Source: Oleiphilus sp. (GTDB taxonomy: Bacteria > Pseudomonadota > Gammaproteobacteria > Pseudomonadales > Oleiphilaceae). Taken from it: 64,000 nt of DNA. A model generated the notes under the pieces. It was not told where the DNA came from and searched no databases. It saw only the letters and a program-made list of their open reading frames with translations. The stretch is taken from NCBI GenBank assembly GCA_006212045.1, contig PZPK01000016.1:1-64000 (forward strand), written 5' to 3'. The translations under genes were made by a program, and so were the position numbers. Numbering within the stretch: position 1 is the stretch's first letter; every line of letters begins with the position of its first letter. This document shows positions 6,574-20,419 of the stretch, one piece after another.

Positions 6574-6585
6574 TGTGTAAGCCTC

Positions 6586-6930
6586 TTATTTTCCGACCGA
6601 CTGTTTCAACAGTTCGACTGCAACAGCCGCCAGCGTGCCAATCGCTCCGCCACCCGCTAGAGCTTTCTTCCCATCATGCTTTCGTGCATCCAACTCCAAC
6701 TGCTGATTGTTCAGTCGGTCCTCAACTGACTCAAAACGTTTATCATTTGCGCTCCGGTGATCTTCAATGCGCCGATTGATAGCTTCTGTCTGACGATCTA
6801 CCGAGCGCGCATGATCATCGATTCGGGTATTGATAGCCTGAGTGGAGCTTTGGATTACGGTCACCATCGTCTCGACTAGGGCTTTGACCTCACCGATTCG
6901 CTGTTCAAGTTTGGCATAATCGTCAGACAT
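6586..6930 (-). CDS. coiled-coil protein with C-terminal membrane segment
   Basis: The 114-residue product starts at ATG 6930, preceded by AAGGAAG; an upstream ATG at 6945 has no good ribosome site. A long coiled coil contains related blocks INTRIDDHARSVDRQTEA and INRRIEDHRSANDKRFES. It is followed by a glycine/alanine-rich membrane segment (GGGAIGTLAAVAVELL). The shape resembles haemolysin XhlA-like or inner-membrane spanin-like phage proteins. The neighbours are amidase and terminase genes. The precise function is unknown. Confidence 0.65.
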   Translation of the reverse strand: MSDDYAKLEQRIGEVKALVETMVTVIQSSTQAINTRIDDHARSVDRQTEAINRRIEDHRSANDKRFESVEDRLNNQQLELDARKHDGKKALAGGGAIGTLAAVAVELLKQSVGK

Positions 6931-6951
6931 ATGACTTCCTTCCATTGATCG

Positions 6952-7392
6952 TTATTTAGCCGCCTTGAACGACAACGCACAGGTTTCCTTGAAAGTCACC
7001 GTTTCAAAAACCAGGTCATGTGTTGGTCGGTCTTGATCGTTTACCAGATCAACCAATGGTGGCAGGGCTTTGAAAGAGACCCCGGTTTTGACATAGTGGT
7101 CAAATTCCGGTCCCAAAATCTCCTTTAGACGTGCGGCATCGGCGATCACGACTTCCTCTTTGGGCACAACGGGAACCGTCCCCACTTCCGGAATATGCAG
7201 GGTGTATTTCTCTTTTTCGCCGAACTCTCCTTTGATCAGGCTTTTTATTTCATCCTGTCGTTTTTTGAGAGCCTTAATTTTCAAGTCGATTTCGATACCT
7301 TCAGAAGCCAGATTCTTGAATTTGGCGGGGAGTTTCGCATCCTCTTTAGCTTCGTCTTCGAACTCGATGAATGCAGGTTTGGAACGTGCCAT
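6952..7392 (-). CDS. conserved phage protein of unknown function
   Basis: The 146-residue soluble protein has an N-terminal charged helix (LKIKALKKRQDEIKSLIKGE) followed by a mixed alpha/beta part ending FKETCALSFKAAK. There is no signal peptide, membrane span or motif that I recognise. It sits three bases downstream of the amidase stop, so it is in the late operon. It may be a head or packaging accessory protein, but this is inference from position only. Confidence 0.6.
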   Translation of the reverse strand: MARSKPAFIEFEDEAKEDAKLPAKFKNLASEGIEIDLKIKALKKRQDEIKSLIKGEFGEKEKYTLHIPEVGTVPVVPKEEVVIADAARLKEILGPEFDHYVKTGVSFKALPPLVDLVNDQDRPTHDLVFETVTFKETCALSFKAAK

Positions 7393-7394
7393 GG

Positions 7395-7895
7395 TTAGAC
7401 CTCCAGTAAATGGTCATGTAGTGAGTTAAAGTCATTGTCCATCCAGGCTCGCACATCGAATCCAGGACAGGTTTTGTGTTCATTGACGGCCCGGTGGCCA
7501 ATGATTTTTGAAAGCTTTGGCAGGCTGTCATGCAGCGTGAGAATCAAACTTTTTGCGGTGGTCCACTGAGCTTCGGTAAAGGCGTCCGTACCGATCAGGC
7601 AAATTCCAACAGAGGAACTGTTGAATTTTCGAGCATGCGCCCCAACTTCTTCCAAAGAGCGGCCGCTCTCTAATACCCCGTCTGTTCTTATCACAAAGTG
7701 ATAGCCGACATGCCGTAGGTGGGGCTGATGTTTCTTGATGAAGATTTGTTCTCGTTGAAACGGCCTTAGCCCACGATTTATCCGGTCTGGCCCATGCCAA
7801 TAGTCCACGTCTTCGATCGTATGAAATCGACCGTTAGGCGTGGCTGCACAATGAAAAATTGCGGTTGTAATCTGAGACATTGAACGTGGCATCAT
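7395..7895 (-). CDS. N-acetylmuramoyl-L-alanine amidase endolysin
   Basis: This 166-residue protein matches the PGRP/amidase_2 zinc hydrolase fold (T7 lysozyme type), which cuts the amide bond between muramic acid and the peptide stem. The zinc ligands are visible: His near residue 15 in FHCAAT, His in GYHFVI is a fold landmark, and the C-terminal GHRAVNEHKTCPGFD supplies the second His and the Cys. There is no signal peptide, so it depends on the holin. ATG 7895 follows AGGTG. It is the first gene of the leftward late operon, about 55 bases downstream of the shared late-promoter motif. Confidence 0.92.
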   Translation of the reverse strand: MMPRSMSQITTAIFHCAATPNGRFHTIEDVDYWHGPDRINRGLRPFQREQIFIKKHQPHLRHVGYHFVIRTDGVLESGRSLEEVGAHARKFNSSSVGICLIGTDAFTEAQWTTAKSLILTLHDSLPKLSKIIGHRAVNEHKTCPGFDVRAWMDNDFNSLHDHLLEV

Positions 7896-7933
7896 GGCAG
7901 CACCTACTTTGTTGGTGATGCCATTGTCGAGTA

Positions 7934-7973
7934 ACGCTAGCGTTCAAAACACGTGAAATGTTTCGGGGGTAAG
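7934..7973 (-). promoter_or_regulatory. late promoter for the leftward lysis/packaging operon
   Basis: Minus-strand bases 7973-7949 carry the element with core CCCCCGAAACATTTCACGTG, also present at 19115-19139 before the rightward late operon (23 of 25 positions match). It contains the near-palindrome GAAACATTTC. A possible -10 (TAGCGT) lies 15 bases downstream. There is no good -35, which is expected for a Mor/C-activated promoter. Confidence 0.75.
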
Positions 7974-8024
7974 AATCGCTTTAACGGCCTATGGCCGAAC
8001 CACTTTAGCTATGGAATTTTTGAT

Positions 8025-8939
8025 ATGCCGAACAAAACATATAAGTTTGATTTCTTTGAAGCGTTGACTCAAAACTCGAACGCCAATGCAACACTAAGGA
8101 CCACCACAGACATGCTGCAAAGTATGAAAGAGGCATTTGATAGCGGAAACCCACCAGCGAAGGAAATTGGTGGCTAGACCCATGAGCTGAGAAGTATTGA
8201 GGAAACTGAGTTTGGATATAGAGGTATCATTGGGAAGCATCGTAAATCGAACTTACCCCATGCGGCAGCAGTTGGAGGTGAAGAACGAGAGCTTGAAATA
8301 AGAGAAGATGAGAATCTTTTGGAGAAAGCCTGCTTCCATTACTACGCAGACTACAGCTTGATAATACTACAGCGAAATATTACCTGCATAGGATACAAAA
8401 ATATGGCTAGGTTCCTGAGCGATTCAGGCTACGTTACCAGCTTGAGCCCGGTAATTGAGCCAACTGATTTGCAATGGATGATCAACAACAAAATCCATCT
8501 ACGTCATGCCGAAATCGCAATAGCAAGACCCAGAAACCCCGAATTGTTTCAAAGAATGGAGCACGACTTCAACAACTCAATCGTAACTACACTTACTGGC
8601 ACTGGAACTGCTATGCTCAAAATTGAGATTCGAGGAGATGCTAAATCGACAGACCCTGAATGTAGGTATCTTGCGCAAAACGTGAAACGAGCTTTTCGGG
8701 AGATGCAGGCGAATTTTGACGTTCGGAAGTGTAAACTATTGCTCGAACATGAAGACTCTCACATTACACACCCGGTCGACTTGGTTTTGGATCGATTGAT
8801 CTTTCAGAAGGATATCGCGATCGAAACACGCTACCCGCCATTATTTGAGATATGGGAGGCCCTTACAGAAGCCCGGACTGAAAAAGAAGAGGAACTTCGG
8901 CGCTACTTTGGAAGTCTTGAAAGGATGCGGCTTACTTAG
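8025..8939 (+). pseudogene. accessory gene of a plus-strand cassette, interrupted by an in-frame TAG
   Basis: One reading frame runs from ATG 8025 to TAG 8937-8939 (304 codons) except for an amber codon at 8175-8177 (codon 51). The first part is MPNKTYKFDFFEALTQNSNA... and ends EIGG. After the TAG the frame continues without a start codon as THELRSIEETEFGYRGIIGKH and has the composition of real protein throughout. From memory the whole resembles the uncharacterised DUF6731 family, with moderate confidence. It is a soluble protein with no catalytic motif that I can name. It faces opposite to its neighbours and is followed nine bases later by a membrane-protein gene. It could be recently broken, expressed by TAG readthrough, or a sequencing error. 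Confidence 0.7.
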
Positions 8940-8947
8940 CTTTAATT

Positions 8948-9415
8948 ATGAATAAGAATACAGTGATTCACTTCTCATCAATCGCATTCGTATCGGCTAT
9001 GATTTGTTGGTTCATATGGCCTACGGTATCCGAATTCGAATCTAAGTCGATTCAACCGATTGCATCTGCAGTTTCAACTATCACAGGTATTCTGTTGGGC
9101 TTCATTATGGCGTCAATGTCCATCATTGGCGCAGCGCCCAGCAACACCCTTATTCGAAATACCAGTTTGACTGGTTACCTACCTCAACTTGTTGAGAGGC
9201 TTCACTATACTATGGGTGCACTTCTAGTCGTATGCCTCATATTTCTGGCCGTTTTGTTTGTACCGGAATCAAAGACCCTAAGATTAAGCGAAGCAGGAGC
9301 CGAGTATCGCTTGGGATCTGTGTTCGTTTTGGTCGGAATGTTTGTATTGATAATTGCTGTCTATCTGTTCTTGTGGACCTGGACAAAGTTCAAAGATTTT
9401 GCGAAGCACATGTAA
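8948..9415 (+). CDS. four-helix membrane protein of the accessory cassette
   Basis: The 155-residue protein has four predicted membrane segments at about 8-26, 37-58, 86-106 and 120-145, and a short charged tail (TKFKDFAKHM). No family is recognised. It starts nine bases after the preceding gene and must share its transcript. Small cytosolic-plus-membrane gene pairs at such prophage positions often act in superinfection exclusion or defence, but here that is inference. A rightward terminator hairpin lies at 9724-9749. Confidence 0.65.
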   Translation: MNKNTVIHFSSIAFVSAMICWFIWPTVSEFESKSIQPIASAVSTITGILLGFIMASMSIIGAAPSNTLIRNTSLTGYLPQLVERLHYTMGALLVVCLIFLAVLFVPESKTLRLSEAGAEYRLGSVFVLVGMFVLIIAVYLFLWTWTKFKDFAKHM

Positions 9416-9451
9416 CGGATGTTTGTAATGGAGGATTAACAATTATTGAAT

Positions 9452-9679
9452 TCAGTGTGAGATAGCAGCCCTGCGCCTAAATACCGTAGTGTCTTTGTGA
9501 AAGTCGCAGATCACTGTTTTTGTTGCTATCAGCGACCAGGCGGTGTAACCGAGCTTCACCGCGACTTGTTCTATTTTCTCGCCCGTCCATGCGGCATAAA
9601 TTCTGATATCCTCATTGAGTTCAGCGCGAGCGAGTAGCCTAGTATAGGCTGCATCTTCTCGCTGTTTTTGTGATGACAT
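9452..9679 (-). CDS. small hypothetical phage protein
   Basis: The 75-residue protein starts at ATG 9679 with CAGGAGG at good spacing. A helical, charged N-terminus (SSQKQREDAAYTRLLARAEL) is followed by EDIRIYAAWTGEKIEQVAVKLGYTAWSLIATKTV, which resembles a small helix-turn-helix. It is the last gene of the leftward early/middle block and is not recognised. A DNA-binding role is possible. Confidence 0.55.
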   Translation of the reverse strand: MSSQKQREDAAYTRLLARAELNEDIRIYAAWTGEKIEQVAVKLGYTAWSLIATKTVICDFHKDTTVFRRRAAISH

Positions 9680-9723
9680 TTTGGCCTCCTGACCAAGTAG
9701 TAATTACGACAGCAAAGCGTTAT

Positions 9724-9749
9724 AGCCCGCCGAAGCGGGCTTTGATTTT
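9724..9749 (+). terminator. rho-independent-type terminator of the accessory cassette
   Basis: Perfect 7-bp stem AGCCCGC/GCGGGCT with a CGAA tetraloop (9724-9741), followed on the plus strand by TTTGATTTT. It would stop rightward transcripts from 8025-9415. The hairpin could also weaken leftward transcription, but the minus side lacks a T tract. Confidence 0.65.
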
Positions 9750-9972
9750 AGAACGTAGTGGGTTGAGCAACGCCACGGATTGCCCACATAAAACCCTGCT
9801 GCAAATTTGTTTTACCGATTGCCACACATCGCTTGTCTGTCTTTTCATTTGCCTCCAGTTTGGCTATGTATTCATGGCATTGTTCTGCGAGAGCCTTTCC
9901 TTCATTCATTAAATCGATTTCGTCCTGGCTCAGATCGCGGTAGCCTGTAATTTTTTCGTGCTGGTCTTTCAT
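9748..9972 (-). CDS. Acb2/Tad1-like anti-CBASS cyclic-nucleotide sponge
   Basis: The 74-residue helical protein shows the conserved pattern of the Acb2 family: a GYRDLSQDEIDLMNEGK N-terminal block and a C-terminal AIGKTNLQQGFMWAIRGVAQP block ending in PTTF. In Pseudomonas transposable phages such as PaMx33, Acb2 forms hexamers that trap cyclic di- and trinucleotides made by CBASS cyclases, blocking the host abortive response. Length and both motifs fit. ATG 9972 has AGAGGTG upstream. Lying in the early/middle block of a transposable phage matches its known context. Assignment is from memory of the family, without a search. Confidence 0.75.
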   Translation of the reverse strand: MKDQHEKITGYRDLSQDEIDLMNEGKALAEQCHEYIAKLEANEKTDKRCVAIGKTNLQQGFMWAIRGVAQPTTF

Positions 9973-9990
9973 GATTTACACCTCTTAGGG

Positions 9991-10054
9991 TAGTTGGTTG
10001 GGTCGCGAACGTGCGACGAATTGATCTACCAACTAAGCCCCAATGAAGGGGCTT
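9991..10054 (-). other. structured, tRNA-like leader upstream of the Acb2-like gene
   Basis: On the minus strand, hairpin AAGCCCC/GGGGCTT (10054-10035) is followed by TAGTTGG (10035-10029) pairing with CCAACTA (9997-9991). Inside that is GTCGC/GCGAC (10017-10002). GGGGCTTAGTTGGTAGA resembles a tRNA acceptor and D arm, and the inner hairpin resembles a T arm, but there is no anticodon arm. It may be a degraded tRNA or a structured 5' leader. Confidence 0.35.
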
Positions 10055-10080
10055 ATTGATTGGTTTATTCCGGAGTACTA

Positions 10081-10227
10081 CTATCCAGATTTTCGCTTAC
10101 AGCTGTCCCCGGAGTCGGATGGCCAGGCATCTATCGGGACCGTCTGCTGATTGCACCGGCTGTCTCCGAGGCACGCAACCATCGTGAGAGCGATGACAAC
10201 CAAAACCGCTTTGAAGATCGTGTTCAT
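10081..10227 (-). CDS. 48-residue putative small lipoprotein
   Basis: ATG 10227 overlaps the stop of the preceding gene (ATGA), with CAGGAG upstream. The product begins MNTIFKAVLVVIALTMVAC, a short signal with a lipobox-like MVAC, followed by about 29 polar residues with two more cysteines. It would be exported and possibly lipid-anchored. Size and type recall outer-membrane spanins (Rz1-like) or superinfection-exclusion lipoproteins, but proline content is low. Stop-start coupling supports translation. Confidence 0.55.
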   Translation of the reverse strand: MNTIFKAVLVVIALTMVACLGDSRCNQQTVPIDAWPSDSGDSCKRKSG

Positions 10228-10715
10228 GACTTTTTCTCCTGCAGTCTTTTCACCCCGCAACTTGCCAGAACTGACTTGGCATCGGCCGGTATGTCTTTCT
10301 TCATCTCGGCCGCTTTGTGTTGCTCGCCTTTCACTTCACCTGGTGGCTTCTGATAGCCTGTTTGTTTGACTGGTGACCCGAGGGTCTCCAGCACCTGCTT
10401 GAGGTAGTTGTGATTGGCCAGCGGCTGACCTTTGCTTTGCGCGGCACGTTGCTTTTGAATGTTGTCGACCGTCCGTTCCAGGGCGGCCGACAGAGGCCCT
10501 GACAACTCAAGAACTTCTTTTGCCAGCTTCAGGGCGCGGGTGTTGCTTAAGTCTTGCTTAGCGGGCCTGAAAAGGCCCAGATACTGGATCAGCGGAACCG
10601 ACACATCACGTGGCTGTTTGGCCAGCAAAGCCAACAGCTGAGAGCTGGCTTCGTCCTGAACAATTGCCTGCAGATCAATACGGTGATGACAGCACGGACA
10701 GCGACCCAGTTGCAT
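10224..10715 (-). CDS. phage early protein with N-terminal zinc-ribbon-like motif
   Basis: The 163-residue protein begins MQLGRCPCCHHRIDLQAIVQ, a CxxCHH knuckle that could bind zinc. It continues with a helical region containing LIQYLGLFRPAKQDLSNTRALKLAKEVL and a Lys/Gln-rich tail. Similar proteins occur in early regions of Mu-like phages, but their role is not known to me. A nucleic-acid-binding role in replication is plausible. The stop overlaps the start of the lipoprotein-like gene, and its start overlaps the stop of the gene at 10715-10930. Confidence 0.6.
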   Translation of the reverse strand: MQLGRCPCCHHRIDLQAIVQDEASSQLLALLAKQPRDVSVPLIQYLGLFRPAKQDLSNTRALKLAKEVLELSGPLSAALERTVDNIQKQRAAQSKGQPLANHNYLKQVLETLGSPVKQTGYQKPPGEVKGEQHKAAEMKKDIPADAKSVLASCGVKRLQEKKS

Positions 10716-10930
10716 TACTCGGCTCCTGCGTGACTGATGCGAAAGCGTTGGTAGTAGTTATCGTCAACACGGTCTGTTGACGCCAGCTGCTTGATCACAC
10801 CATTGCGCCCAAAGAAGTCATTGATCTGTTCATGTACATTGCGCCGATCTTCAATCCGGATCATGTTCGTGTTCATGGAAACGGATGCAGGACCAGGGGT
10901 GTAGTTTCGTTTTGTGGATTGGTTAAGCAT
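10715..10930 (-). CDS. small hypothetical early protein
   Basis: The 71-residue product MLNQSTKRNYTPGPASVSMN... has no recognisable motif. TAGGAA precedes the ATG at 10930. It is packed between the Mor-like activator and the zinc-knuckle protein with a one-base overlap, so it is part of the leftward early transcript. Internal methionines (for example residue 19) could be the real start. Confidence 0.5.
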   Translation of the reverse strand: MLNQSTKRNYTPGPASVSMNTNMIRIEDRRNVHEQINDFFGRNGVIKQLASTDRVDDNYYQRFRISHAGAE

Positions 10931-10953
10931 TGTTCTATTCCTATGTGAGCCAG

Positions 10954-11361
10954 TTAAAACATCGTCAGCTGATCGATGTCAGACGAGTTGATCCCCAATT
11001 CAGCGCGAATCTGCTGCACACGCCTCTGGGTATAACCCGTATTCAGGGCGATATCTCGCGACGGCACCCGTGCGGCGGTCATCTCTGCGATGAGCCTGTA
11101 TTTGATTTGCCGGACGGCCGCATCGAGCTTTGGAAACGAAAGTTCCTCGCTACGATAGGCATCTACCAACGCCTCAAATGCTTCCATACCAATGATCTTT
11201 ACAACATCGTGATCTGCATGTGCCTCATTTGGCACATACAAACGCACACCGTTGTATGCCTCTCCCAATTTGAGTGTGGCTGGCAACCCAATCACAGATG
11301 CCAGCTCTCGGTGCAGCTCAGGCAAAATATCAGGGTTGATTTTTTTCGGATCAATCGACAT
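10954..11361 (-). CDS. mor: Mor/C-family middle-late transcription activator
   Basis: The 135-residue protein matches the Mor transcription activator family (Mu Mor and C). The N-terminal dimerisation part contains LPELHRELASVIGLPATLKLGEA and GVRLYVPN, and the C-terminal helix-turn-helix SRDIALNTGYTQRRVQQIRAEL ends near residue 124. These dimers bind dyad sites over the -35 region and recruit sigma-70 polymerase to promoters without a good -35. It is the only such gene seen in the prophage, so it is the natural candidate to activate both motif-bearing late promoters (7949-7973 and 19115-19139). Confidence 0.88.
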   Translation of the reverse strand: MSIDPKKINPDILPELHRELASVIGLPATLKLGEAYNGVRLYVPNEAHADHDVVKIIGMEAFEALVDAYRSEELSFPKLDAAVRQIKYRLIAEMTAARVPSRDIALNTGYTQRRVQQIRAELGINSSDIDQLTMF

Positions 11362-11375
11362 GGTTTAAACCGTGT

Positions 11376-11885
11376 TTATTGGTCAATTAAATTGGTTTTA
11401 TAGCTATCCAGTCCGCGCTGTTGGTGCGCTTTTTTAAGAGTCTCTATCGCCGTATTCAATTGCGCAGATGAGATCCACTCAAAGCGTTCCAGGCCAGGGA
11501 CATGATTCATGCAGTAGCGTTCCATTGCTTTGCGCGATCGATCGTTGACCACCCCTGCATTCGCCAATGAATTCCATAGCGCCATCAACTTCCCGATACG
11601 TGGATTGCGCCAGCCGGGAGACGAAGCCTTGCCGTGTTTTTTGGGAACGAACCTAGCCTTAAATCCCAGGCTACGGCATTGATCGAGTGCCGCCTCAAGC
11701 TGTTCAATTGTCATCGTCGTTGCGCTGAACTTGCCGTTTTTCTCTGACGCACCGTTCATGAACAAAATGTGCCTGTAATCGTCATCGGTAAAACCTGGGC
11801 GCAGCTCCTTCAGGTGCCGGTTGGCCACGGCCAGAAGCTTGTAGTAGCGGTTACGATCATCTGTGTGTTTCAGCGCCGCGCTCAT
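11376..11885 (-). CDS. gemA: GemA-like regulatory protein (Mu gp16/DUF1018 family)
   Basis: The 169-residue protein contains the DUF1018 core DRNRYYKLLAVANRHLKELRPGFTDDDYRHILFM and a C-terminal helical part with HVPGLERFEW and LNTAIETLKK. In Mu, GemA affects host gene expression and DNA topology. It lies between the HD-like protein and Mor, the usual early-region position, and overlaps the upstream gene by four bases. Confidence 0.82.
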   Translation of the reverse strand: MSAALKHTDDRNRYYKLLAVANRHLKELRPGFTDDDYRHILFMNGASEKNGKFSATTMTIEQLEAALDQCRSLGFKARFVPKKHGKASSPGWRNPRIGKLMALWNSLANAGVVNDRSRKAMERYCMNHVPGLERFEWISSAQLNTAIETLKKAHQQRGLDSYKTNLIDQ

Positions 11886-12490
11886 TGATCACGCTCCCAG
11901 GTGGCCACGGCCGCCGCGAGAATCTCGAAAGTCTGCATAAAGTCACAGAACACCTGATAGCTGGTATTGTGATCCCACTCGATCGCATCCGCGTCGGCCG
12001 GGATCTCTGTCAAGATGTGGGAATAGCTTCGGCTTGGAGAGAAGCGCTTGGCCTCCATTGCCTGGGCAACCAATGTGGTTTTATCCAGCAAGTCGCGAAC
12101 ACCTTCTGCTGGCTTCTCGATACCCAGACTTTCATACACGATGCTCTGCACTTGGCTTTCCAGGAAAGAAATCTGCTCGCGCAGATAGCTTAGGTGCCGA
12201 ACCGGCGAAGGATAGCTTCCGGAGTACACCTCATGAGCGCGATACAACATTGCTTGCATAGCGGTATAAGGGTTGCCGGTATTCATCAGAATATAACGCT
12301 GAACCCATAGGGCATGGTGGGCCAGCGTATACGGGTTATGTATGAGCTGGTGGCCACCATTGACCGGCGTTCGACTCATGAGTAGAGCGATTTCCTCAAC
12401 GCTGGTCTTGAACTCGTCAATGTGGGTGTAATCCAGCATCTGACCCGAAATTGATTCGGTAATCATTGGTTGTGAGATTGTAGCGTTCAT
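11882..12490 (-). CDS. HD-domain-like early protein with altered metal motif
   Basis: The 202-residue product starts at ATG 12490 (GGGAG upstream); the frame is open further up but overlaps MuB. The segment YTLAHHALWVQRYIL...AMLYRAHEVYSGSYPSPVRHL lines up with phage HD-type phosphohydrolases, whose normal motif reads like ALLHDAHEAYxGDIPSPVK. Here the paired His-Asp is replaced by Tyr-Arg. The fold is probably kept, but the metal site appears lost, so it may be a non-catalytic nucleotide-binding protein. Context is between MuB and GemA in the early transcript. Confidence 0.55.
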   Translation of the reverse strand: MNATISQPMITESISGQMLDYTHIDEFKTSVEEIALLMSRTPVNGGHQLIHNPYTLAHHALWVQRYILMNTGNPYTAMQAMLYRAHEVYSGSYPSPVRHLSYLREQISFLESQVQSIVYESLGIEKPAEGVRDLLDKTTLVAQAMEAKRFSPSRSYSHILTEIPADADAIEWDHNTSYQVFCDFMQTFEILAAAVATWERDQ

Positions 12491-12506
12491 GGTTTGGCTC
12501 CCGAGG

Positions 12507-13559
12507 TTATTTACGTTTTGGGCTAAGGTTGAGGGCCTTCTTGGCGACGGCATACACCACGTCGGCACTCACGGTATTGTGTTGTGGAATGCCATATCGC
12601 TTGATGTTTGGAATCAAGCCATTCACCAGCATTCGCATCGATCCATCGCACAAGGACCAAAAGGCATTGAAAATGTCCTCGCGTAGATCGCCGTCTTCGT
12701 CGAAGATCTCCGGGCGATCATCAAAGCTCACTGACACAATCGCACGTGCATCATCCTTGGTAATGTGAAAGATGGGCTCAGGGAAAAACGGTGCTCGCGA
12801 GCGAATCTGATCGAACTGACCGCCTTCGGGTTTGATCAATGAGTAGAGTTGTGATGTACCGGCCAGCACTACGCCAATATTGCCTAGATCCATCAGTCGC
12901 CGAATGGTCTCTAAAGACTTTGGATTTACCGTCTCGGCTTCATCCAGAATCAACAAACCGTTTTCGATCTTGGCAACATGGGAAACGACGGTTTTGAATT
13001 TTCGATGGACCGGCACATAGTTGGTAAATTGCTTGATTCCCAATTTCTCGACCAATTCATCAACCAGGCAGCCAGTGTTCATGCCAGGGTACGATTCCAC
13101 CATCCAGGTGTTTGCGTGTTCCTCTGCATACTCTTTTAGCGCACGGGTTTTCCCCGTGCCCACGTTGGCCGCTACTACCGAGAACATGGCGCTCACGCGG
13201 GCTTGCTTGCAGGCCGTATTGACAATGCGAGATACGCTGGTTTCAACAAACGGTGTGTATCCCGATTCGGTTTTGCGCTCGTCAATATTGCGAATGGTCT
13301 GCATTAGTTTTGTCAGGTTCGTCGTGACATGACCGGTGTAATTGCCGTTAAGCAGCATATTGACCAGCGCCGGGCTCAACGATGCAGCCGTGGAGAGATA
13401 CCTGCCTGCTCTTTTGCGGTTATTCAGCCATTCGATAATCTCTTTTATTGCCGCCTTGTCCTCAGCCGAATACTTGCTGGTCCACTCAGTAGGTACCGTG
13501 TGCGGCTTGAAGCGAGAGGCACTGGGGTCTACTGTTACGGCGTCTGTTTTTGCTGGCAT
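12507..13559 (-). CDS. MuB-like transposition target-selection ATPase
   Basis: The 350-residue AAA+ protein captures target DNA for the transposase and gives target immunity. An N-terminal Cro/cI-like helix-turn-helix (GRYLSTAASLSPALVNMLLNG, about 52-72) precedes the ATPase with Walker A ANVGTGKTRAL (about 131-141) and Walker B LLILDEAE (about 202-209), then an arginine-rich QIRSRAPF segment. ATG 13559 with CAGGAG is preferred over an ATG at 13595, which overlaps MuA. It directly follows the transposase gene, as in all Mu-like phages. Confidence 0.92.
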   Translation of the reverse strand: MPAKTDAVTVDPSASRFKPHTVPTEWTSKYSAEDKAAIKEIIEWLNNRKRAGRYLSTAASLSPALVNMLLNGNYTGHVTTNLTKLMQTIRNIDERKTESGYTPFVETSVSRIVNTACKQARVSAMFSVVAANVGTGKTRALKEYAEEHANTWMVESYPGMNTGCLVDELVEKLGIKQFTNYVPVHRKFKTVVSHVAKIENGLLILDEAETVNPKSLETIRRLMDLGNIGVVLAGTSQLYSLIKPEGGQFDQIRSRAPFFPEPIFHITKDDARAIVSVSFDDRPEIFDEDGDLREDIFNAFWSLCDGSMRMLVNGLIPNIKRYGIPQHNTVSADVVYAVAKKALNLSPKRK

Positions 13560-13581
13560 TTGTTGCTCCTGTTGTGTGCTG

Positions 13582-15243
13582 TTAATCAAACTCATTTAGG
13601 TCGATGTCCAGATCGATATCGACATCTGGAGCCTTCGGCTCTGGCTCCGGCAAGCTGCTCTGCAATTCATGCAGCTCTTCGTACTGGTGGTTGTTTTCGA
13701 CTAAAGCTCCAGAGCGGAGCTTCACTTCGTGAATCTTGGCTTCGAGACGCTTGACTGCGGCATCTCTGGATTTTTTGATTTGTTCATCTAGACGAGACTG
13801 AGGAATAAAGACTTTCTTGCAATCCAACTCGGCATCGCATATCAGGCGGCCACTTTCATCTCGTACAGTAATGACGGTGTCGTCTTCGAAGGAGTACTCG
13901 CATACAACCGAGCGTGAGTTGTGCTGTATTAGAATCGGGTGGTAGTACTTGCGATTGTGAAGCGTTACGCATGAACGCTGTACGACTCTACTCTCGCGCG
14001 CTTTCAAGACATCCTCTGGGTCTATATGCAGTGGCGTGCGCTCCAGTGTTGACCAAAGCTCATGCGGAGTCGTGTCAGGGAACTCGGGGTGTGGTCTGTT
14101 GTGGTAGTTCTCAAGCCACTTTGTAAAGCCATCGCACCACTGTCCAAGTGTGGGTGCTTTTTTTCGTTTGGCTTTTACTTCTCGGTACCAGACTCTGGCC
14201 ACCTCTTTTGAATGACCTTCGCCGCAGAAGGCCTCGCCAAACGAGACGCCATAATCACGTTCCATTGTTCTGAAAAAACGTTCGACCTGGCCCTTGGCTT
14301 TTGCGTTACCAGGTATGGCGAATATGGTTTGGATGTTGAAGCGATTGTAAAAACCAATCGCCTCATCGCTCATGATTTTTGACTTGTACCCACACCCGTT
14401 GTCGACATACAAGATTGCGGGTACATGGTCATGATTTAGAAGCGACCTTCCGATTGCTTGTATCGTTGCGACACCTGACTCAGCGCTGCTTAGGTGCCAC
14501 CCTACAATGAAGCGTGACTTCACATCCATGAATACAGTCAGCTCCGCACGCCAGGTACCACTGCCGCTGTTCGGGTGCTCCAGGTAAACGTCGATGGTGT
14601 GGCCGTCTGCCTGGTAGATCGCGCCTACAGGAACATTCTCACAAGTACGTGAAATGAAATTCTTCTGGCTGTTGTTGTAGAGGTGTTTGCCAATGCGTGC
14701 TGGCGAGTTCTTACCCAAGGTTTCAGGCAGAGACTTAAGGTACTTGGTTACGCGAGAGTCTGTCGCACTCTCAAAATCGTGATACTCACGTAAACGCCTG
14801 GCAACCCATTGATAGCTCACCTGGTTGGGGTTTTGAAACAGCTGCACCGCAAGTGCTTCCCAGCCGTAGTCTTTACGTACACGGCCCGTGTACTTATCTA
14901 GAAGGCCGCTTTTGCCTTCATCCTGGTACGCCTTTAACCAGCCATGAATGGTTGAACGCCCAGGCACTTTCCCTGCTCTGCCAAGAGACTCAGCTAGCGC
15001 CATGTAAGAAGGGGTACACTGTTTGCTTTCAATCTTTTTTAGAAGGTTGCGGATGGCTACGTTCGCAGACCCGCCTTTGGACACGTGATCCAAAACAGGT
15101 TTGAGAAACTGCTCGCGACTGCTCGCAACCTCTCTCTGTTTGAACGTGGCCGCTTGCCACTGCTCAGATGTCGTTTTAGCTACGGGTGCGTTGTGATCCA
15201 TTACTTCCTTCACCAACGCATTAATCGGTACTACGGCTGCCAT
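13582..15243 (-). CDS. MuA-like DDE transposase
   Basis: The 553-residue protein pairs the two phage ends and performs cleavage and strand transfer. N-terminal helix-turn-helix segments (GRSTIHGWLKAY near 95-106) lead into the RNase-H-like rve core. Catalytic residues are D213 in YQADGHTID, D281 in LYVDNGCGYKS and E321 in KGQVERFF. The core is followed by the beta-barrel domain and an acidic tail (DVDIDLDIDLNEFD), the region that in MuA contacts MuB and ClpX. All catalytic residues are present. It is transcribed leftward from the early promoter near 16.67 kb. Confidence 0.95.
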   Translation of the reverse strand: MAAVVPINALVKEVMDHNAPVAKTTSEQWQAATFKQREVASSREQFLKPVLDHVSKGGSANVAIRNLLKKIESKQCTPSYMALAESLGRAGKVPGRSTIHGWLKAYQDEGKSGLLDKYTGRVRKDYGWEALAVQLFQNPNQVSYQWVARRLREYHDFESATDSRVTKYLKSLPETLGKNSPARIGKHLYNNSQKNFISRTCENVPVGAIYQADGHTIDVYLEHPNSGSGTWRAELTVFMDVKSRFIVGWHLSSAESGVATIQAIGRSLLNHDHVPAILYVDNGCGYKSKIMSDEAIGFYNRFNIQTIFAIPGNAKAKGQVERFFRTMERDYGVSFGEAFCGEGHSKEVARVWYREVKAKRKKAPTLGQWCDGFTKWLENYHNRPHPEFPDTTPHELWSTLERTPLHIDPEDVLKARESRVVQRSCVTLHNRKYYHPILIQHNSRSVVCEYSFEDDTVITVRDESGRLICDAELDCKKVFIPQSRLDEQIKKSRDAAVKRLEAKIHEVKLRSGALVENNHQYEELHELQSSLPEPEPKAPDVDIDLDIDLNEFD

Positions 15244-15263
15244 GCAAAGCTCCGCTTTTCAAA

Positions 15264-16235
15264 TTAAGATTCTGTTTTCTTAGGTCGACCAGGCTTACGT
15301 GGCCGGTTGCGCGCTCTTTCTTCTTCACGTATGCGTTTCTGCTGCTCATGCTCTTCAGTCATGTACTCACGGTCAGAGATGGACTGCATGAGTTCTTGTT
15401 CATTGAAGGTGTAATCAATGGAGAGGGGCTCTACGTAGTCGCCTAGCTGAGCATGCAGTTTGTTGACCGTTAGCGTTGCGCGCGCCTGAATTGCTTTGCA
15501 GTGAATATCTACGTTGGTAATGGCAACCGATAGAGAGTTGTCCTGACCTGTTTGAGCGATCTCATTGAGCTGGTCAATCATTTGCTCAAACTCATCAATT
15601 CTCAGATTGATTTCGTTAGCGAGGGCATTGGCCTCATAACGAATGTCATTCACATAGTCGGGATACTTGGCGTTCAGTTGTCGGCGACCTGCCAAGGTAT
15701 CGAGGAGGGCTCGGTGTTCTAACTGCTTGGTTTCTTTATCGAGTTCCAGATCCGCTTTTTCGGCTTCCAACTTGCGAATTCGGTCACGCATTTCTTGATA
15801 AGAAAGGGCTTGTAGGTCAGGGCCGTTTTCAGAGTCACTGTCGGCTAGCAGCTCTTCGATGATTTCTACGTCTAGCTTCGCCAATGAGACGAGTTTCTTT
15901 TGTCCCAGCCCTGTTAGCTTGGGTCTCTTTGATTCTGGGACTGAGAGTAGTAGTCTTGCGACCTGCATTTTCTCTCGCACAGTTCGCATCTTGAATCCGG
16001 CGCTTTTGAGCCAGGTTTCAAATTCGCCGTGGGGCAGTTTTTCTTTAAGCGCCAAGAAACAAAATCCTTGCTGAGCTTGTGCGCGTACAAGATGATTTTG
16101 TTGCTCAAGCAGAAGGTCCTTAAGTTCCTCAATGTCTTCAGGTATGTCGACTGATATTGGAATGTTTGAATTTACTAGGTTGGCTAATTCCTTTTCCAGA
16201 TCGGCCTCGGGGGCCGTTATCACGATGTCTGTCAT
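15264..16235 (-). CDS. early DNA-binding protein with AT-hook tail
   Basis: The 323-residue protein has an N-terminal region with LPHGEFETWLKSAGFKMRTV, similar to DUF3102-like phage proteins. A long coiled coil follows (about 165-190), then a helical middle and a C-terminal RPRKPGRPKK, a canonical AT-hook (GRP core). It probably binds AT-rich DNA, perhaps assisting transpososome formation or acting as a nucleoid-like factor. It sits directly upstream of the transposase gene in the early transcript. Confidence 0.65.
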   Translation of the reverse strand: MTDIVITAPEADLEKELANLVNSNIPISVDIPEDIEELKDLLLEQQNHLVRAQAQQGFCFLALKEKLPHGEFETWLKSAGFKMRTVREKMQVARLLLSVPESKRPKLTGLGQKKLVSLAKLDVEIIEELLADSDSENGPDLQALSYQEMRDRIRKLEAEKADLELDKETKQLEHRALLDTLAGRRQLNAKYPDYVNDIRYEANALANEINLRIDEFEQMIDQLNEIAQTGQDNSLSVAITNVDIHCKAIQARATLTVNKLHAQLGDYVEPLSIDYTFNEQELMQSISDREYMTEEHEQQKRIREEERARNRPRKPGRPKKTES

Positions 16236-16309
16236 ATTTGACGTCTCCTATTTTAAAACGGCGCTGGCGCCGTTTTGCCATGTGTGCGTATTGATTTTTC
16301 TTGGTTTGG

Positions 16310-16609
16310 TTAGCTTGCTTTTCTAAGCTCTGATTCCGCAGCGCCTTTTGCTGGGAGTCGGCCTCTCGTGCTGTTGCCGCGGAGCTTTTTGTACTTGGCT
16401 GGACATGTCAGATATTTCCCAGGCCAGAGTTTTTCGGTGGGAATGTCGATAATTGAAGAAATGGCATAAGCGACTGGATGGCTCACTTTGGTGCCTCGTA
16501 TTACTTCCGTTACAACGGATTTACTTACCGACTCTTGTTCGGCGACTTTCGTCAAGGTCCAACCTCTTTTTTGCAGCTCACAAACAATTTCCGCCCAATG
16601 TAAAAGCAT
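16310..16609 (-). CDS. ner: Ner/Nlp-family early regulator
   Basis: The 100-residue protein starts at ATG 16609 after AGAGGA; an open frame reaches farther up but crosses the promoter region. The winged/HTH pattern WAEIVCELQKRGWTLTKVAEQESVSKSVVTEVI...PTEKLWPGKY matches the Ner family, which in Mu lowers early transcription after lytic onset. The basic tail KKLRGNSTRGRLPAKGA is longer than in Mu Ner. It is the first gene of the leftward early operon and faces the repressor gene across 134 bases of operator DNA. Confidence 0.82.
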   Translation of the reverse strand: MLLHWAEIVCELQKRGWTLTKVAEQESVSKSVVTEVIRGTKVSHPVAYAISSIIDIPTEKLWPGKYLTCPAKYKKLRGNSTRGRLPAKGAAESELRKAS

Positions 16610-16653
16610 TCTTTTTTGATCCTCTCTATGCGATACTGACACGATAAATCTAA

Positions 16654-16699
16654 AATGTTCGATAAATTGAACATTAATTCTATATGTGGGACATGTCAA
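16654..16699 (-). promoter_or_regulatory. early promoter with overlapping operator
   Basis: On the minus strand TTGACA (16699-16694), a 17-bp spacer and TAATGT (16676-16671) form a strong sigma-70 promoter driving ner-muA-muB. A perfect 7-bp dyad AATGTTC/GAACATT with an 8-bp spacer (16654-16675) covers the -10 and start point. TTCTATA(T/G)GTGG occurs as a direct repeat at 16678 and 16729. Repressor or Ner binding here would close the promoter. Confidence 0.75.
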
Positions 16700-16743
16700 C
16701 CTTTCATGCATCACAATTAATAATAATGTTCTATAGGTGGAAT

Positions 16744-17160
16744 ATGGCTTCTGTTGGTTCGCGACTACAGGAAGAAAGAAAACGGCTAAAAATAAGTCAG
16801 GCCGAATTTGGAAAGATAGGTGGGTGTGGAAGAACCACACAGATTCGGTACGAGTCTGATGAGGGGTCTCCAACTCTTGATTATTTGGACAGGATTGGAG
16901 ATGCCGGTGCAGACATTATCTATATCGTTTCAGGAGAAAGATCCGGAAAGGCGAGATACGAATCACCGCTGGAAGCGATGCAGGTTGTAATCGAAGTACA
17001 AGAAGAACTAAAGCTCAAACTTGAAGCAGAGCAAATTAGGAATCTGACAGGGTTGACCTATTCCGCAAGTCTTGATCGCGAACAGTTAAAGGCAGTTGTG
17101 CTTGGCTCCTACCAACTTGATGGCATTGACATTGGCACCCCCTCTGAATCGAAACAATAA
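16744..17160 (+). CDS. XRE-type phage repressor
   Basis: The 138-residue product starts at ATG 16744 with AGGTGGA just upstream. The N-terminal helix-turn-helix SRLQEERKRLKISQAEFGKIGGCGRTTQIRYESDE covers about residues 5-40. A linking segment SPTLDYLDRIGDAGADIIYIVSGER is typical of XRE regulators in prophages. The C-terminal half is helical and probably forms oligomers; there is no S24 protease domain. It is divergent from ner, the position of Mu c, and is the best candidate for lysogeny maintenance. Confidence 0.8.
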   Translation: MASVGSRLQEERKRLKISQAEFGKIGGCGRTTQIRYESDEGSPTLDYLDRIGDAGADIIYIVSGERSGKARYESPLEAMQVVIEVQEELKLKLEAEQIRNLTGLTYSASLDREQLKAVVLGSYQLDGIDIGTPSESKQ

Positions 17161-17710
17161 ATTTCATCAACATATCTTTTTCCTTACAACGTTTCCGGTC
17201 GGCTAGATTCTCTTTATCATTTTTCACAGAATAATCCTTGAACTCCAGCGTCGCTGGCTGCTGCCCAGCAACATTGTTATTTGGTTACCGTATATCGTAT
17301 TATTTGGCCACTAAATCTACACCGTCCTTCCGCCCCGTATCGCGGAGCTTTGCGCAGCTTTCGCTGTGCGTACTTCCGTGGTCGGGTCGAGAGCGGCGAA
17401 TACAATACCCCTTGTGGGAAATACCCGCCGGTTCGTGTAGAGCCAGTTGAGGCCCGGCCTGCCAATGCCTCAAAGCAATGTGAATAGTTGATCATTTGTT
17501 TAGGAATCTGACAAGCGCCGCCCCGTCAAATGCGAGTGTGATGGAGTTCACGCCACCTGACACCGCGTGTCGCCTTTTACAGCATCGAGTTCACAAAAAG
17601 GCCCCAAAAGCGACAAATTTGTCGCATCGTGAACAAATGTAAAACTGCAGTTGTCCAGACTTTTATGTGATGTATTCCACGAAATTTACGTGGTCTGAAT
17701 GAGGGCGGAT
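17161..17710. other. 550-bp non-coding region downstream of the repressor
   Basis: No supported gene. 17235-17500 is GC-rich, with short inverted repeats such as CCAGC/GCTGG, and looks like a degenerate extragenic repeat. 17540-17700 carries operator-like palindromes before the next gene. A weak promoter, TTGTCC (about 17652) with TATTCC (about 17674), could drive the gene at 17711. Confidence 0.45.
17546..17634. promoter_or_regulatory. palindromic operator cluster upstream of second XRE gene
   Basis: A perfect 16-bp palindrome GCGACAAATTTGTCGC (17610-17625) lies between GTTCAC (17589-17594) and its complement GTGAAC (17629-17634), with another GTTCAC at 17546-17551. Farther down, CCACG/CGTGG flank AAATTTA next to the gene start. 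This is the expected architecture for an autoregulated XRE protein. Confidence 0.5.
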
Positions 17711-18079
17711 ATGAAAAATGGGACACATATCAGGTGTTTGCTGGCAAGAGAAGCGGCACAGTTATCCCAAACGGAAGCCGCACGGCGATTGAATCGCAGT
17801 GTGCGTTCGATCCAGCGGCTGGAAAAACACGATCGGGAAGATGTCTCCATCTTTCAGCAACTGGGAGATATATACGAATGCTCACCGATTTGGCTGGAAT
17901 ATGGCCTGGGCCCCATGCAAAAAGATTCGCGCCTGGCTGGAATTGCCAGCACCTGGTCTCGGCTTTCGGAGCGACAGCGCGATATGTTTTGGAAACTTTT
18001 GATTCAAATACTGGAGAGTAATCAGCATGCAAAAACAAGCGATCGCATTCTTTATGATTATATTGGCTTCTTCCTTTAG
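17711..18079 (+). CDS. second XRE-type regulator
   Basis: The 122-residue protein starts at ATG 17711 (GAGGGCGG upstream). Its N-terminal helix-turn-helix is REAAQLSQTEAARRLNRSVRSIQRLEK, followed by a DIYECSPIWLEYGLGPM segment common to small phage regulators. The C-terminus is a helical tail. It is separated from the first repressor by 550 bases with its own palindromic operator, so it may regulate the two secreted-protein genes downstream rather than lysogeny. Confidence 0.65.
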   Translation: MKNGTHIRCLLAREAAQLSQTEAARRLNRSVRSIQRLEKHDREDVSIFQQLGDIYECSPIWLEYGLGPMQKDSRLAGIASTWSRLSERQRDMFWKLLIQILESNQHAKTSDRILYDYIGFFL

Positions 18080-18401
18080 CCATGGTTATGACTCCATCGC
18101 GCAGCAGGTTTTTAATTATGAATGCCAGCAGCTGAATCATCTCGATTGCAAGTTCCAGTGTGACTATCGTGGGCCCGGTGATTTGACCTTTCATGTTGAA
18201 AAGGGCTTTGATGAAAAAGACGAGCACTGCCAGTATGAATTTGGAAAGGTATTGTTGCGATACGCTGCCCATGGTGGCGAGCTATATAAAACCACGTACG
18301 AATCCAAAGGCGATGACTACTATCGAAAACATCAGATAACCAATCGCAATGGAAGGAAAATTTCTTGGGAGTGCAGTATTGCATCTGGACAGTGCGAATA
18401 A
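18027..18401 (+). CDS. secreted cysteine-rich protein of unknown function
   Basis: The 124-residue product begins with signal peptide MQKQAIAFFMIILASSFSHG and a mature chain holding six cysteines, including CQQLNHLDCKFQC and WECSIASGQC, consistent with disulfides in the periplasm or outside. It overlaps the preceding regulator gene by 53 bases in another frame, implying coupled expression. No family is recognised. It may alter the lysogen's surface, for example superinfection exclusion, but this is inference. Confidence 0.6.
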   Translation: MQKQAIAFFMIILASSFSHGYDSIAQQVFNYECQQLNHLDCKFQCDYRGPGDLTFHVEKGFDEKDEHCQYEFGKVLLRYAAHGGELYKTTYESKGDDYYRKHQITNRNGRKISWECSIASGQCE

Positions 18402-18531
18402 ACATCACCGACAAGCCGTTTAAAGGGTGTTTAACTTCAACGATCGCTTTTTAGAGGTGCCATTACCGCACTTTCAATTTTAGGCGCTTAAAACGGCCTA
18501 GAATCGCTCAGATTATTTTAGCCTGGGAGAA

Positions 18532-19059
18532 ATGACCGTGAGAATAAAAACGAGCTGTGTGCTCCAACTAATAATCCTTGTACTTAGTTTTAATGTGTGT
18601 GCGGATGAATATGATGATTCGCTAGTTGACCGTGCCAATGTTTTTTTGAGCGAAGAGTATTCGCTTTTAGAAATCACCAATCCCGAATCACTTATAAGAA
18701 ACTGGAATCAAATCGAAGGGATTGACTTACTCACATTTATGTACAAAGAAAAGAGTGCTCATTTTAGCCGAACTAATGCCGCTCCTCATATGCTTCACAA
18801 ATGGGCAAATCAAAGAGCATCTTACGCAATGTTGAATCACAACGATCCGGTCGTTTATTCTCTTGTGGCGATGATAGAAAACTACAGATATTTTTTGAGA
18901 CTCAGATTGAATGACGGCAATGGCCGCCCGTATCAGGGAGATACATATTACGAGGCAAAACACCTAGTTATTAATGCAGGTCGTCGTCTGGCTACTCTCG
19001 TGGACCAGAAGTATACTGACGCAAAAATTCTTCGCCCCGAAAAAGTAATAGAGTTTTAA
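18532..19059 (+). CDS. secreted protein of unknown function
   Basis: The 175-residue product starts at ATG 18532 after GGGAGA. A signal peptide TSCVLQLIILVLSFNVCA precedes a helical mature domain (YDDSLVDRANVFLSEEYSLLE...ARRLATLVDQKYTDAK) without cysteines. It is not recognised. It lies between the cysteine-rich secreted protein and the rightward late promoter, so it is likely expressed in the lysogen rather than as a late gene. Confidence 0.6.
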   Translation: MTVRIKTSCVLQLIILVLSFNVCADEYDDSLVDRANVFLSEEYSLLEITNPESLIRNWNQIEGIDLLTFMYKEKSAHFSRTNAAPHMLHKWANQRASYAMLNHNDPVVYSLVAMIENYRYFLRLRLNDGNGRPYQGDTYYEAKHLVINAGRRLATLVDQKYTDAKILRPEKVIEF

Positions 19060-19114
19060 ACAAACGTTGAAGACCAATCTTACGCTCAACGAACTAAACG
19101 TTAGATAGCTAAAA

Positions 19115-19156
19115 CTTCCCCCGAAATATTTCACGTGTTGGCCTTTATCCTATCCT
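19115..19156 (+). promoter_or_regulatory. late promoter for the rightward head/tail operon
   Basis: Core CCCCCGAAATATTTCACGTG (within 19115-19139) contains the perfect palindrome GAAATATTTC (19123-19132). Two overlapping TATCCT -10 candidates begin 13 and 18 bases after it (19146 and 19151). No -35 is visible. It matches 7949-7973 on the other strand. A start point near 19158-19163 would leave almost no leader before the first ATG. Confidence 0.78.
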
Positions 19157-19162
19157 CGGATA

Positions 19163-20419
19163 ATGGGCCCTATGAAAAATACACCGCACACAATCTATGA
19201 CTTCAAGGGCCTCGACGATTGGTTTGAAGTGTTCCGCGCGGGAACCCAAACCGATAGCAAGGGGCGTGAAGCCACCTTCACCCAGGACGACCTTGACAGC
19301 ATTGTTGCCAACCATAGCGCTGAGCAACCTGCGCCTTTGGTCGTTGGGCATCCCCAACAAAATCACCCTGCCTATGGCTGGACCGCAGGGCTGAAGCGCG
19401 ACGGTGACGTGTTGCTGGCTAAGGCCCAAGATGTGGTGCCCGAATTCCAGTCTGCGGTTGAGGCCAAACAATATCGTCACCGTTCAGTGTCTTTGGTGCC
19501 AGCCGAAAATGGCTATCGCTTGCGCCATATCGGTTTTCTCGGGGCTGTTGCGCCCGCTGTGCCAGGTCTGAAAGATATTGCCTTTAATGCGGGTGATGAA
19601 TCCGCCACGTTTGAATTCTCGGTTGACGACGCTGTTCGCAGTGTTAGCTGGCGCTTTGGTTCCATTGCCACGCTATTCCGCCGATTTAAAAACTGGTTTA
19701 TCGAACAGGAAGGGGCCGAGGCAGCCGAGCAGCTGATTCCGGAATACACACTTGAAGATCTCACCACCGCGCAAGAACGCATTACCAGCGATCTGGACCG
19801 CAGCGAATTAAAAAACAGTTTTCAGGATTCGCGAAAAAATTCCACTGACACCATCACTATTCACTCCGATTCACCAGAGGAGACTCCTATGTCGGACAAA
19901 AAATCATTTAGCCAGGCAGATCTGGACGCGGCGGTGGAGGCTGCTGTTGCACCGCTAAAACAGGAGCGCGATGCGCTCAAGCAACAACAGCAAGAAGCCT
20001 CCTTTAATACCAAGCGACAGGAAGCAACAACTTTTGTCAATGGATTGGTCGACAAGGGCGTGCTGCTACCTTCGCAATCGGGCGGCATGATCGAGTTTCT
20101 GGCGGCACTAGATGGCGATGAAGAATCCAGCTTCGAGTTCAGCGTTGGAGAAGGTGAGCAGGCACAGACCAAAAAATCAACGCCTCAATCCTTCATGAAA
20201 GAGTGGCTGAGCGCGCTACCAAAACAAATTGAATTCAATCGCAAGTCCGATGCAGGTGACGATCTGGATGACAGCACCAGCTCCGATTATGCAGCGCCAA
20301 ATGGCATGACCGTCGATCCGGATCGTGCCGCGCTGGATAAGAAAGCGATGGATTATTCCAAACAGCACAACGTCGATTACGCGACGGCTGTTCAACTAGT
20401 GGCGCAGGAGGATTCGTGA
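19163..20419 (+). CDS. prohead protease with C-terminal scaffold (Mu gpI-like)
   Basis: The 418-residue head maturation protein has a protease domain at about 1-150 with conserved VVGHPQQNHPAYGWTAGLKRDGD, the YRHRSVSLVP segment that places the catalytic residues, and IGFLGAVAPAVPGLKDIAF. The C-terminal half is acidic and helical (scaffold). An ATG at 19172 is an alternative start. It is the first gene of the rightward late operon, followed immediately by the decoration protein and major capsid genes. Confidence 0.9.
   Translation: MGPMKNTPHTIYDFKGLDDWFEVFRAGTQTDSKGREATFTQDDLDSIVANHSAEQPAPLVVGHPQQNHPAYGWTAGLKRDGDVLLAKAQDVVPEFQSAVEAKQYRHRSVSLVPAENGYRLRHIGFLGAVAPAVPGLKDIAFNAGDESATFEFSVDDAVRSVSWRFGSIATLFRRFKNWFIEQEGAEAAEQLIPEYTLEDLTTAQERITSDLDRSELKNSFQDSRKNSTDTITIHSDSPEETPMSDKKSFSQADLDAAVEAAVAPLKQERDALKQQQQEASFNTKRQEATTFVNGLVDKGVLLPSQSGGMIEFLAALDGDEESSFEFSVGEGEQAQTKKSTPQSFMKEWLSALPKQIEFNRKSDAGDDLDDSTSSDYAAPNGMTVDPDRAALDKKAMDYSKQHNVDYATAVQLVAQEDS
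19889..20419 (+). CDS. nested scaffold protein from internal start
   Basis: An in-frame ATG at codon 243 of the protease gene is preceded by AGAGGAG at ideal spacing. It would produce a 176-residue MSDKKSFSQADLDAAVEAAV... scaffold identical to the protease C-terminus. Mu makes its scaffold Z from an internal start in gene I, so the same arrangement is expected. The scaffold shapes the prohead and is cleaved by the protease. Confidence 0.65.
   Translation: MSDKKSFSQADLDAAVEAAVAPLKQERDALKQQQQEASFNTKRQEATTFVNGLVDKGVLLPSQSGGMIEFLAALDGDEESSFEFSVGEGEQAQTKKSTPQSFMKEWLSALPKQIEFNRKSDAGDDLDDSTSSDYAAPNGMTVDPDRAALDKKAMDYSKQHNVDYATAVQLVAQEDS

Follow-up and report, generated by a model that had tools for sequence, protein, structure and literature searches.

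A duplicated dyad before the two opposed late operons of a KS10/TJ1-like transposable prophage, with a Mor/C-type protein as its candidate activator

In bacteriophage Mu, the activator C turns on the promoters lys, I, P and mom, whose -10 and -35 elements are described as non-consensus (PMC4461284). Mor, the other Mu activator, binds a 16-bp element of the promoter Pm that is centred at -43.5 (PMC4390567). It drives the middle operon and recognises a pair of 5-bp repeats separated by 6 bp rich in G/C. For Burkholderia phage KS10, the published description leaves the split head module and its coordination unexplained and suggests a DksA-like coordinator (PMC2628397). The prophage described below lies in the first 64,000 nt of Oleiphilus sp. 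contig PZPK01000016.1 (this whole stretch is the window) and is a KS10/TJ1-like transposable phage, its nearest named phages being Burkholderia KS10 and Curvibacter TJ1. Two copies of a short motif stand before its two opposed late operons, and we consider it very probable that they are the operators of activator-dependent late promoters, at which a Mor/C-type protein would switch the two arms together.

The element CCCCCGAAAYATTTCACGTG has two exact copies in the 64-kb window, at 7950–7969 (minus strand) and 19118–19137 (plus strand), and no third place at three or fewer mismatches; 0 of 100 dinucleotide shuffles of the window contain a match to it, so that the duplication is far beyond what chance would give. 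The copies form an inverted repeat with arms at 7948–7969 and 19118–19139 (22 nt, 95% complementary) and 11,148 nt between them, in agreement with the distance of about 11 kb given in a preliminary description of this DNA. Also as described there, each copy reads toward the operon that follows it, namely the leftward amidase/packaging operon and the rightward protease/head–tail operon. The motif had been presented as 25 bp long and confined to these two places; the two copies and the lack of others stand, while the core measures 20–22 bp, and the coordinates proposed for it (7973–7949 and 19115–19139) are shifted by one base relative to each other (CTTA-CCCCC in one copy, CTT-CCCCC in the other). 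Two extra places for the core occur at three mismatches in the organism's own genome (4.43 Mb); a reversed-pattern control also gives two, and these places were dropped for that reason. The 20-mer is absent at two or fewer mismatches from the other genomes searched (96 of 97), and it has no exact match in the collection of viral contigs.

What the two copies have in common is a 16-bp dyad with the core GAA-N4-TTC. From the dyad centre to the centre of a -10-like hexamer the distance is 34 bp in both copies, which bears out the earlier suggestion of one promoter motif for both arms, and neither predicted promoter has a recognisable -35. These are the only two predicted promoters of the dyad/-10 type in the window. 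A third site at 32915 (GGCGAAACGTTTCACG) was not counted, because it falls within the coding sequence of a baseplate protein and no partner matches it.

We propose that a dimer of the Mor/C-type protein would bind the dyad and bring the sigma-70 RNA polymerase of the host to a -10 element that has no recognisable -35. In this way, one signal would turn on both operons, the leftward one for lysis and packaging and the rightward one for head and tail.

The position of the dyad relative to the start of transcription can be estimated from relatives, whose loci carry L numbers below. Sites were picked by hand (29 left, 30 right) and reduced to one phage per cluster, leaving 19 left and 21 right sites. 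The most informative flanking columns, on both arms, are an A at +33 and a T at +37 from the dyad centre, each present in 18 of 19 left and 18 of 21 right sites. The two most conserved bases of the sigma-70 -10 element are -11A and -7T; reading the A and the T as these two bases places the dyad centre at -43.5. In the window, too, the dyad is directly upstream of the predicted core promoter with its centre near -43.5, and the promoters stand before the lysis gene and the protease gene (I), where Mu-type late promoters are placed. As at Mu Pm (PMC4390567), a 16-bp dyad at -43.5 takes the place of the -35 element; in contrast to Mor, the window-type factor seems to act on the late operons without an intermediate. 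Many relatives have ATGAC, a partial -35, right after the dyad, which is absent in the window. Many relatives, among them KS10 (L005), TJ1 (L006) and L038, have a small palindrome around the -10 of the right arm (GCACAGTGC and CGCAGACTGCG are examples), where the window reads TATCCTCGGATA.

Among phages with the gene order of the window, the nearest relative is found in L042. Protease, repressor, transposase and Mor-like gene are arranged there as in the window, and the contig stops shortly past mor. TCCGAAATATTTCGGT stands upstream of the L042 protease, and the identical 16-mer is located before the endolysin gene of L171, a contig from the same metagenome, whose terminase is 63% identical to that of the window. 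Since the first 126 bases of L171 equal positions 12554–12679 of L042 in the same orientation, the two contigs represent adjoining parts of one phage or near-identical phages. If they adjoin, their dyads are about 11.1 kb apart, compared with 11.15 kb in the window. A scan of the collection for the window-type promoter returned 36 stretches; genes of this phage family are present in two of them only, L158 (which is the contig of L042) and L171.

For a wider survey, relatives were fetched by transposase alignment and not by the motif (10 loci from genomes, 32 from viral contigs). Ahead of it, a consensus GGTGAA-N4-TTCACC had been derived from TJ1, whose regions before the two arms contain TTGGTGAAACACTTCACCATGAC and TTGGTGAAGCGTTTCACCATGAC, and from KS10, with GGTGAAACATTTCATA before its holin. 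In most relatives one dyad directly precedes the protease, and another lies in the interval from the lysis arm to the repressor. Of the 360-nt regions scored (KS10 and TJ1 included), 31 of 34 from left arms and 35 of 38 from right arms contain at least 10 of the 12 consensus bases, and P<0.01 against dinucleotide shuffles is reached by 22 of 34 left and 32 of 38 right loci or, counted by transposase cluster, by 12 of 17 and 17 of 22; the left arm of the window was not part of this test. Conservation in relatives upstream of the lysis arm and the protease, which the preliminary description had named as a check, is seen as corresponding dyads in most KS10-type phages, as a fixed distance to the -10 and as an identical pair in the nearest relative, and not as further occurrences of the exact 20-mer.

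L066, which has the gene order of the window, carries GGGGAACTCTTTCCCC on both arms. Phages B23 and YPCBV-1 have Mu-type maps and a related activator gene; B23 carries CCTGAA-N4-TTCAGG ahead of both the lysis side and I, YPCBV-1 has the identical GCTGAAGTCCTTCGCC twice, and -10-like hexamers follow at the same or a one-base-shifted spacing. Of 22 loci scanned for GAA-N4-TTC with A33/T37 and matching outer bases, 10 have a pair; four control cores gave no pairs in the same loci. The 12 loci without a pair are L007, L043, L069 and the nine stretches L076 and L078–L085; L069 has a matched dyad pair that fails the -10 filter. In TJ1, two more dyads with a -10 and a near-leaderless ATG are present in the tail region, at 25570 and 31233, before chaperone-like and gp46-like genes (the annotated start at 25586 falls between the dyad and the -10). 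These would bring the number of late promoters in TJ1 to four, equal to that of Mu.

A further regularity links the two arms of each phage: the outer bases of the dyad differ between phages and agree inside one phage. With the four central bases ignored, left and right dyads share 11.88 of 12 bases within a phage versus 10.70 in permuted pairs (n=17), and 0 of 10,000 permutations gave an agreement as high. The sites of the window and L066 had been picked through left–right agreement and were hence left out of a separate test, which gave 11.87 versus 11.25 (P=0.0003, n=15). The dyads mark a real, conserved pair of predicted late promoters.

The proposed ligand is the product of the Mor/C-type gene (Table 1). 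The preliminary description had called it the prophage's single Mor/C-type activator. Indeed, one Mor/C-like open reading frame (ORF) was detected in each of the window (1–44500), KS10, TJ1, B23 and YPCBV-1; as the search recovered C but not Mor from Mu itself, a second, diverged activator copy is possible and the word single holds for what was detected. The family assignment is supported by the phrog match and by profile comparisons. Alignment A3 of the relatives gives a probability of 93.9 and an E-value of 1.6e-7 in hhalign against Mu Mor plus C; in a PDB profile search, Mor (1rr7) is matched by alignment A1 at E 9.5e-4 and chains of C by A3 at E 2.1e-4 and 3.7e-4. Pfam Mor (PF08765) matches 8 of 9 relatives in A1 (E up to 1) and 14 of 23 in A3 (E up to 0.01). 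The structure model of the window protein has a predicted local distance difference test score (pLDDT) of 86 and is mostly helical with short strands.

The dyads could instead be late operators of another phage or host protein (GemA-like, another early product or DksA-like), with the Mor-like protein acting elsewhere. This draws on the KS10 description, which proposes the DksA-like gp7 as coordinator of both head modules (PMC2628397), and on the fact that we infer the Mor-like protein as ligand of the dyads, and activation by its binding, from sequence. The site has, however, the size and position of a Mor site, and B23, YPCBV-1, KS10, TJ1 and the window differ in map yet all combine a Mor-like gene with a GAA-N4-TTC pair. 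We consider another activator improbable. An operator common to both arms is also a candidate for coordinating the split head module of KS10 that is simpler than a DksA-like factor. Together with one activator, it would answer how the two opposed operons into which KS10-type phages split their head genes are coordinated, and not why the genes are split.

Even less likely, in our view, is that the dyads are repressor operators, bound by a CI-like or Ner-like product, that silence the late arms in the lysogen. Promoter-adjacent dyads are typical of repressor sites as well, and the prophage encodes at least two helix-turn-helix (HTH) regulators besides the Mor-like protein; but a site at -43.5, just upstream of the core promoter, fits activation, and both copies lie outside the repressor/Ner region at 16.2–16.9 kb where such operators are expected.

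Several observations weigh against activation of the two arms by the Mor/C-type protein at these dyads. PF08765 has no match to the window protein itself, and we therefore term it Mor/C-type, by its phrog and profile matches, and not a member of Pfam Mor. When the profiles were compared with the PDB, a designed repeat protein with no relation to the family (8vd6) outscored the Mor/C chains through an HTH-like part, and a Foldseek search of the structure model against the PDB gave no match at E<=0.001. As for the sites, the right operator of the window agrees with the family consensus in 8 of 12 bases (P=0.69, dinucleotide shuffles), and its support therefore comes from L042/L171 and from promoter geometry; L042 and L043 also fail the shuffle test, as do the right arms of L036, L055 and L068. 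L043, which has the window gene order and a Mor-like gene, was searched in three ways and has no common GAA-N4-TTC dyad. Finally, among ten 20-kb stretches around window-order Mor-like genes, some of which may not span both arms, the pair occurs in L077 only. Near position 6873 of L043, a different dyad, GTGTAA-N6-TTACAC, precedes the protease; the locus does not contain it complete a second time.

The inverted arrangement of the two copies around the early transposition cassette, which sits between them and is transcribed leftward, raises the possibility that they are recombination repeats which flip this 11-kb segment. Cassette orientation does vary: it is reversed relative to KS10 in the window, L042, L043 and L066, follows the KS10 order in 39 of 46 loci, and is unsettled in L007, L069 and L071. 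A window-type order had been considered for L069 on the basis of a weak terminase-like match (E 1.6e-4) between transposase and mor, which was taken as spurious. The transposase tree requires two orientation changes and rejects a single clade of the four reversed rows (approximately unbiased test, p-AU 4.5e-7). The additional change depends, however, on L069 and L071, which fall beside L066 and were counted as not reversed despite their unsettled orientation. In the protease tree, on the other hand, the four reversed rows form one side of a branch (support 100/99), corresponding to one change. This single change and the extra tail-region copies of TJ1 do not favour a rapid invertible-segment switch, and neither does the conserved spacing to the -10. 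That the copies serve to invert the cassette is thus very unlikely, and the orientations are best explained by a rearrangement between the operators that took place long ago. With both arms under the same operator, either cassette orientation would keep the late programme intact.

The geometry of the right-arm promoters has a consequence for translation. In 20 of 21 independent right arms, the protease gene has its ATG at +1 (7 arms), +2 (11 arms) or +3 (2 arms), as judged by the -10. In the remaining one, L055, the contig ends within the frame, which renders the script value of +76 meaningless; L055 does have an ATG at +2. Ribosome-binding sequences upstream of the protease start are poor, the best match to AGGAGG averaging 3.1 of 6 bases. 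In the window, the longest protease ORF starts at 19163, with its ATG inside the predicted -10, and the +1 to +3 pattern indicates that translation probably starts at the ATG at 19172. The protease and tail operons look leaderless. A related case is seen in KS10 (L005), where the annotated TTG start of the protease precedes the dyad at 18125–18140 (region 18120–18177) and an in-frame ATG at 18177 is at +2 of the predicted promoter.

Scanning the viral collection for the dyad, the -10 and an ATG at the given spacing yielded 72 stretches with 84 matches in 70 distinct contexts, compared with 8 stretches for a reversed dyad and 7 for a wrong spacing. The 84 ATGs open protease (26), tail chaperone (22), gp46-like baseplate (21) and holin (1) genes and 14 short frames, 11 of which resemble a single coding sequence unrelated to these; with each context counted once, the numbers are 23, 20, 17, 1 and 9. 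Many of these matches come from contigs already surveyed, so the scan is not independent of the survey. Leaderless starts, if true, would silence the late structural genes on early transcripts that read through, and would represent an unusual translation strategy for abundant virion proteins.

The left arm shows a different arrangement in relatives. Here, the -10 is part of an inverted repeat and would pair with the Shine–Dalgarno (SD) sequence of the lysis gene on read-through RNA. This resembles the T4 gene e-type case, in which the SD of a lysis gene is hidden in read-through RNA and free in late RNA. Nineteen left leaders were tried, five of which have no clear start. In 13 of the other 14, SD accessibility on read-through RNA is below the value for shuffled upstream sequence, and in 9 of 14 it is within the lowest 5% of shuffles (the start is doubtful in one of the nine, L045). 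These results are suggestive of SD hiding in relatives. The left leader of the window gives no support for it, with unpaired values of 0.47 for the late RNA, 0.44 for the read-through RNA and 0.32 with shuffled upstream sequence. In L038, L052, L059 and others, the -10 region (CCAGACA) is complementary to the SD region of the lysis gene, and by eye a terminator-like hairpin with a T run lies between the -10 and the SD.

We tentatively suggest, as a joint claim about which we are somewhat more doubtful than hopeful, that these phages share a widespread late system distinct from that of Mu. It would comprise one Mor/C-type protein, with no separate middle-stage C, acting on an operator with a fixed core and phage-specific outer bases; two to four late promoters, with the protease, tail chaperone and gp46 operons starting leaderless; and, in many members, a lysis mRNA blocked on read-through RNA.

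As in the late regulon of Mu, the window has a Mor/C-type protein and separate predicted late promoters before the lysis gene and gene I. Given that Mu C activates promoters at matching genes, the pair in the window represents a variant of a known regulon. It differs from Mu in several respects. One Mor/C-like gene is detected per phage and not Mor plus C (in a search that missed Mu Mor); the promoters of the window face opposite ways around the transposition cassette; and protease genes have their ATG roughly at +1 to +3. In Mu, GAA-N4-TTC does not occur within the 206 nt upstream of gene I; it is present once before lys, in the leader beside the start codon. KS10 and TJ1 share with the window the leftward lysis/packaging arm, the rightward head/tail arm and the dyads before both; in contrast to the window, their transposition cassette is reversed and the outer operator bases differ, and TJ1 has the two additional copies in its tail region. 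Their transposases are each 39% identical to that of the window, and the Mor-like proteins 39% (KS10) and 34% (TJ1).

In the openly licensed PMC literature, we found no paper that describes this operator, nor one that reports leaderless late genes for such phages, which is weak evidence of novelty. As far as these searches reach, new features are the operator core with phage-specific outer bases and one detected activator that would replace Mor and C; the two-armed layout that flanks the transposition genes under one operator; and, likely, the leaderless structural operons. The combination of a fixed core and phage-specific outer bases provides a natural series for reading protein–DNA recognition by Mor/C proteins.

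The features of the locus are collected in Table 1. In the leftward operon, the amidase gene is followed by small genes of unknown function and by genes for a DUF1804 protein, the terminase large subunit, a Mu portal protein and the Mu F-like protein; by position, the DUF1804 protein would be the terminase small subunit. In the rightward operon, the scaffold-like and major head proteins were tested, as were a baseplate wedge protein and a tail fibre protein near the end, and the intervening tail genes are assigned by order.

Table 1. Coordinates of the late operons, predicted promoter elements and regulatory and transposition genes in the window
Feature	Position	Strand	Remarks
Leftward late operon	744..7895	-	amidase first, Mu F-like protein last
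Amidase, first leftward gene	7395-7895	-	PF01510
-10 of left late promoter	7923..7928	-	GACAAT; predicted +1 ~7916
Left operator (predicted)	7952..7967	-	dyad CCCGAAAC/ATTTCACG, centre ~-43.5
Mor/C-type late activator	10954-11361	-	phrog_836, E 3.6e-26
Early transposition cassette	12507..16235	-	MuB-like ATPase, MuA-like transposase, gene upstream
Right operator (predicted)	19120..19135	+	dyad CCCGAAAT/ATTTCACG, centre ~-43.5
-10 of right late promoter	19159..19164	+	GATAAT; predicted +1 ~19171
Head maturation protease	19172..20419	+	phrog_976, E 1.5e-86; predicted leaderless start
Rest of rightward late operon	20416..33852	+	scaffold-like, major head protein, tail genes

Small genes on the plus strand at 8319–9415 and 17699–19059 (phrog_7651, phrog_8552, an HTH protein and others) lie outside the late operons and are possibly accessory cargo. 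The window begins at base 1 of the contig, near the Mu F-like gene (region 1–744), and this contig start may be the left prophage end or an assembly break.

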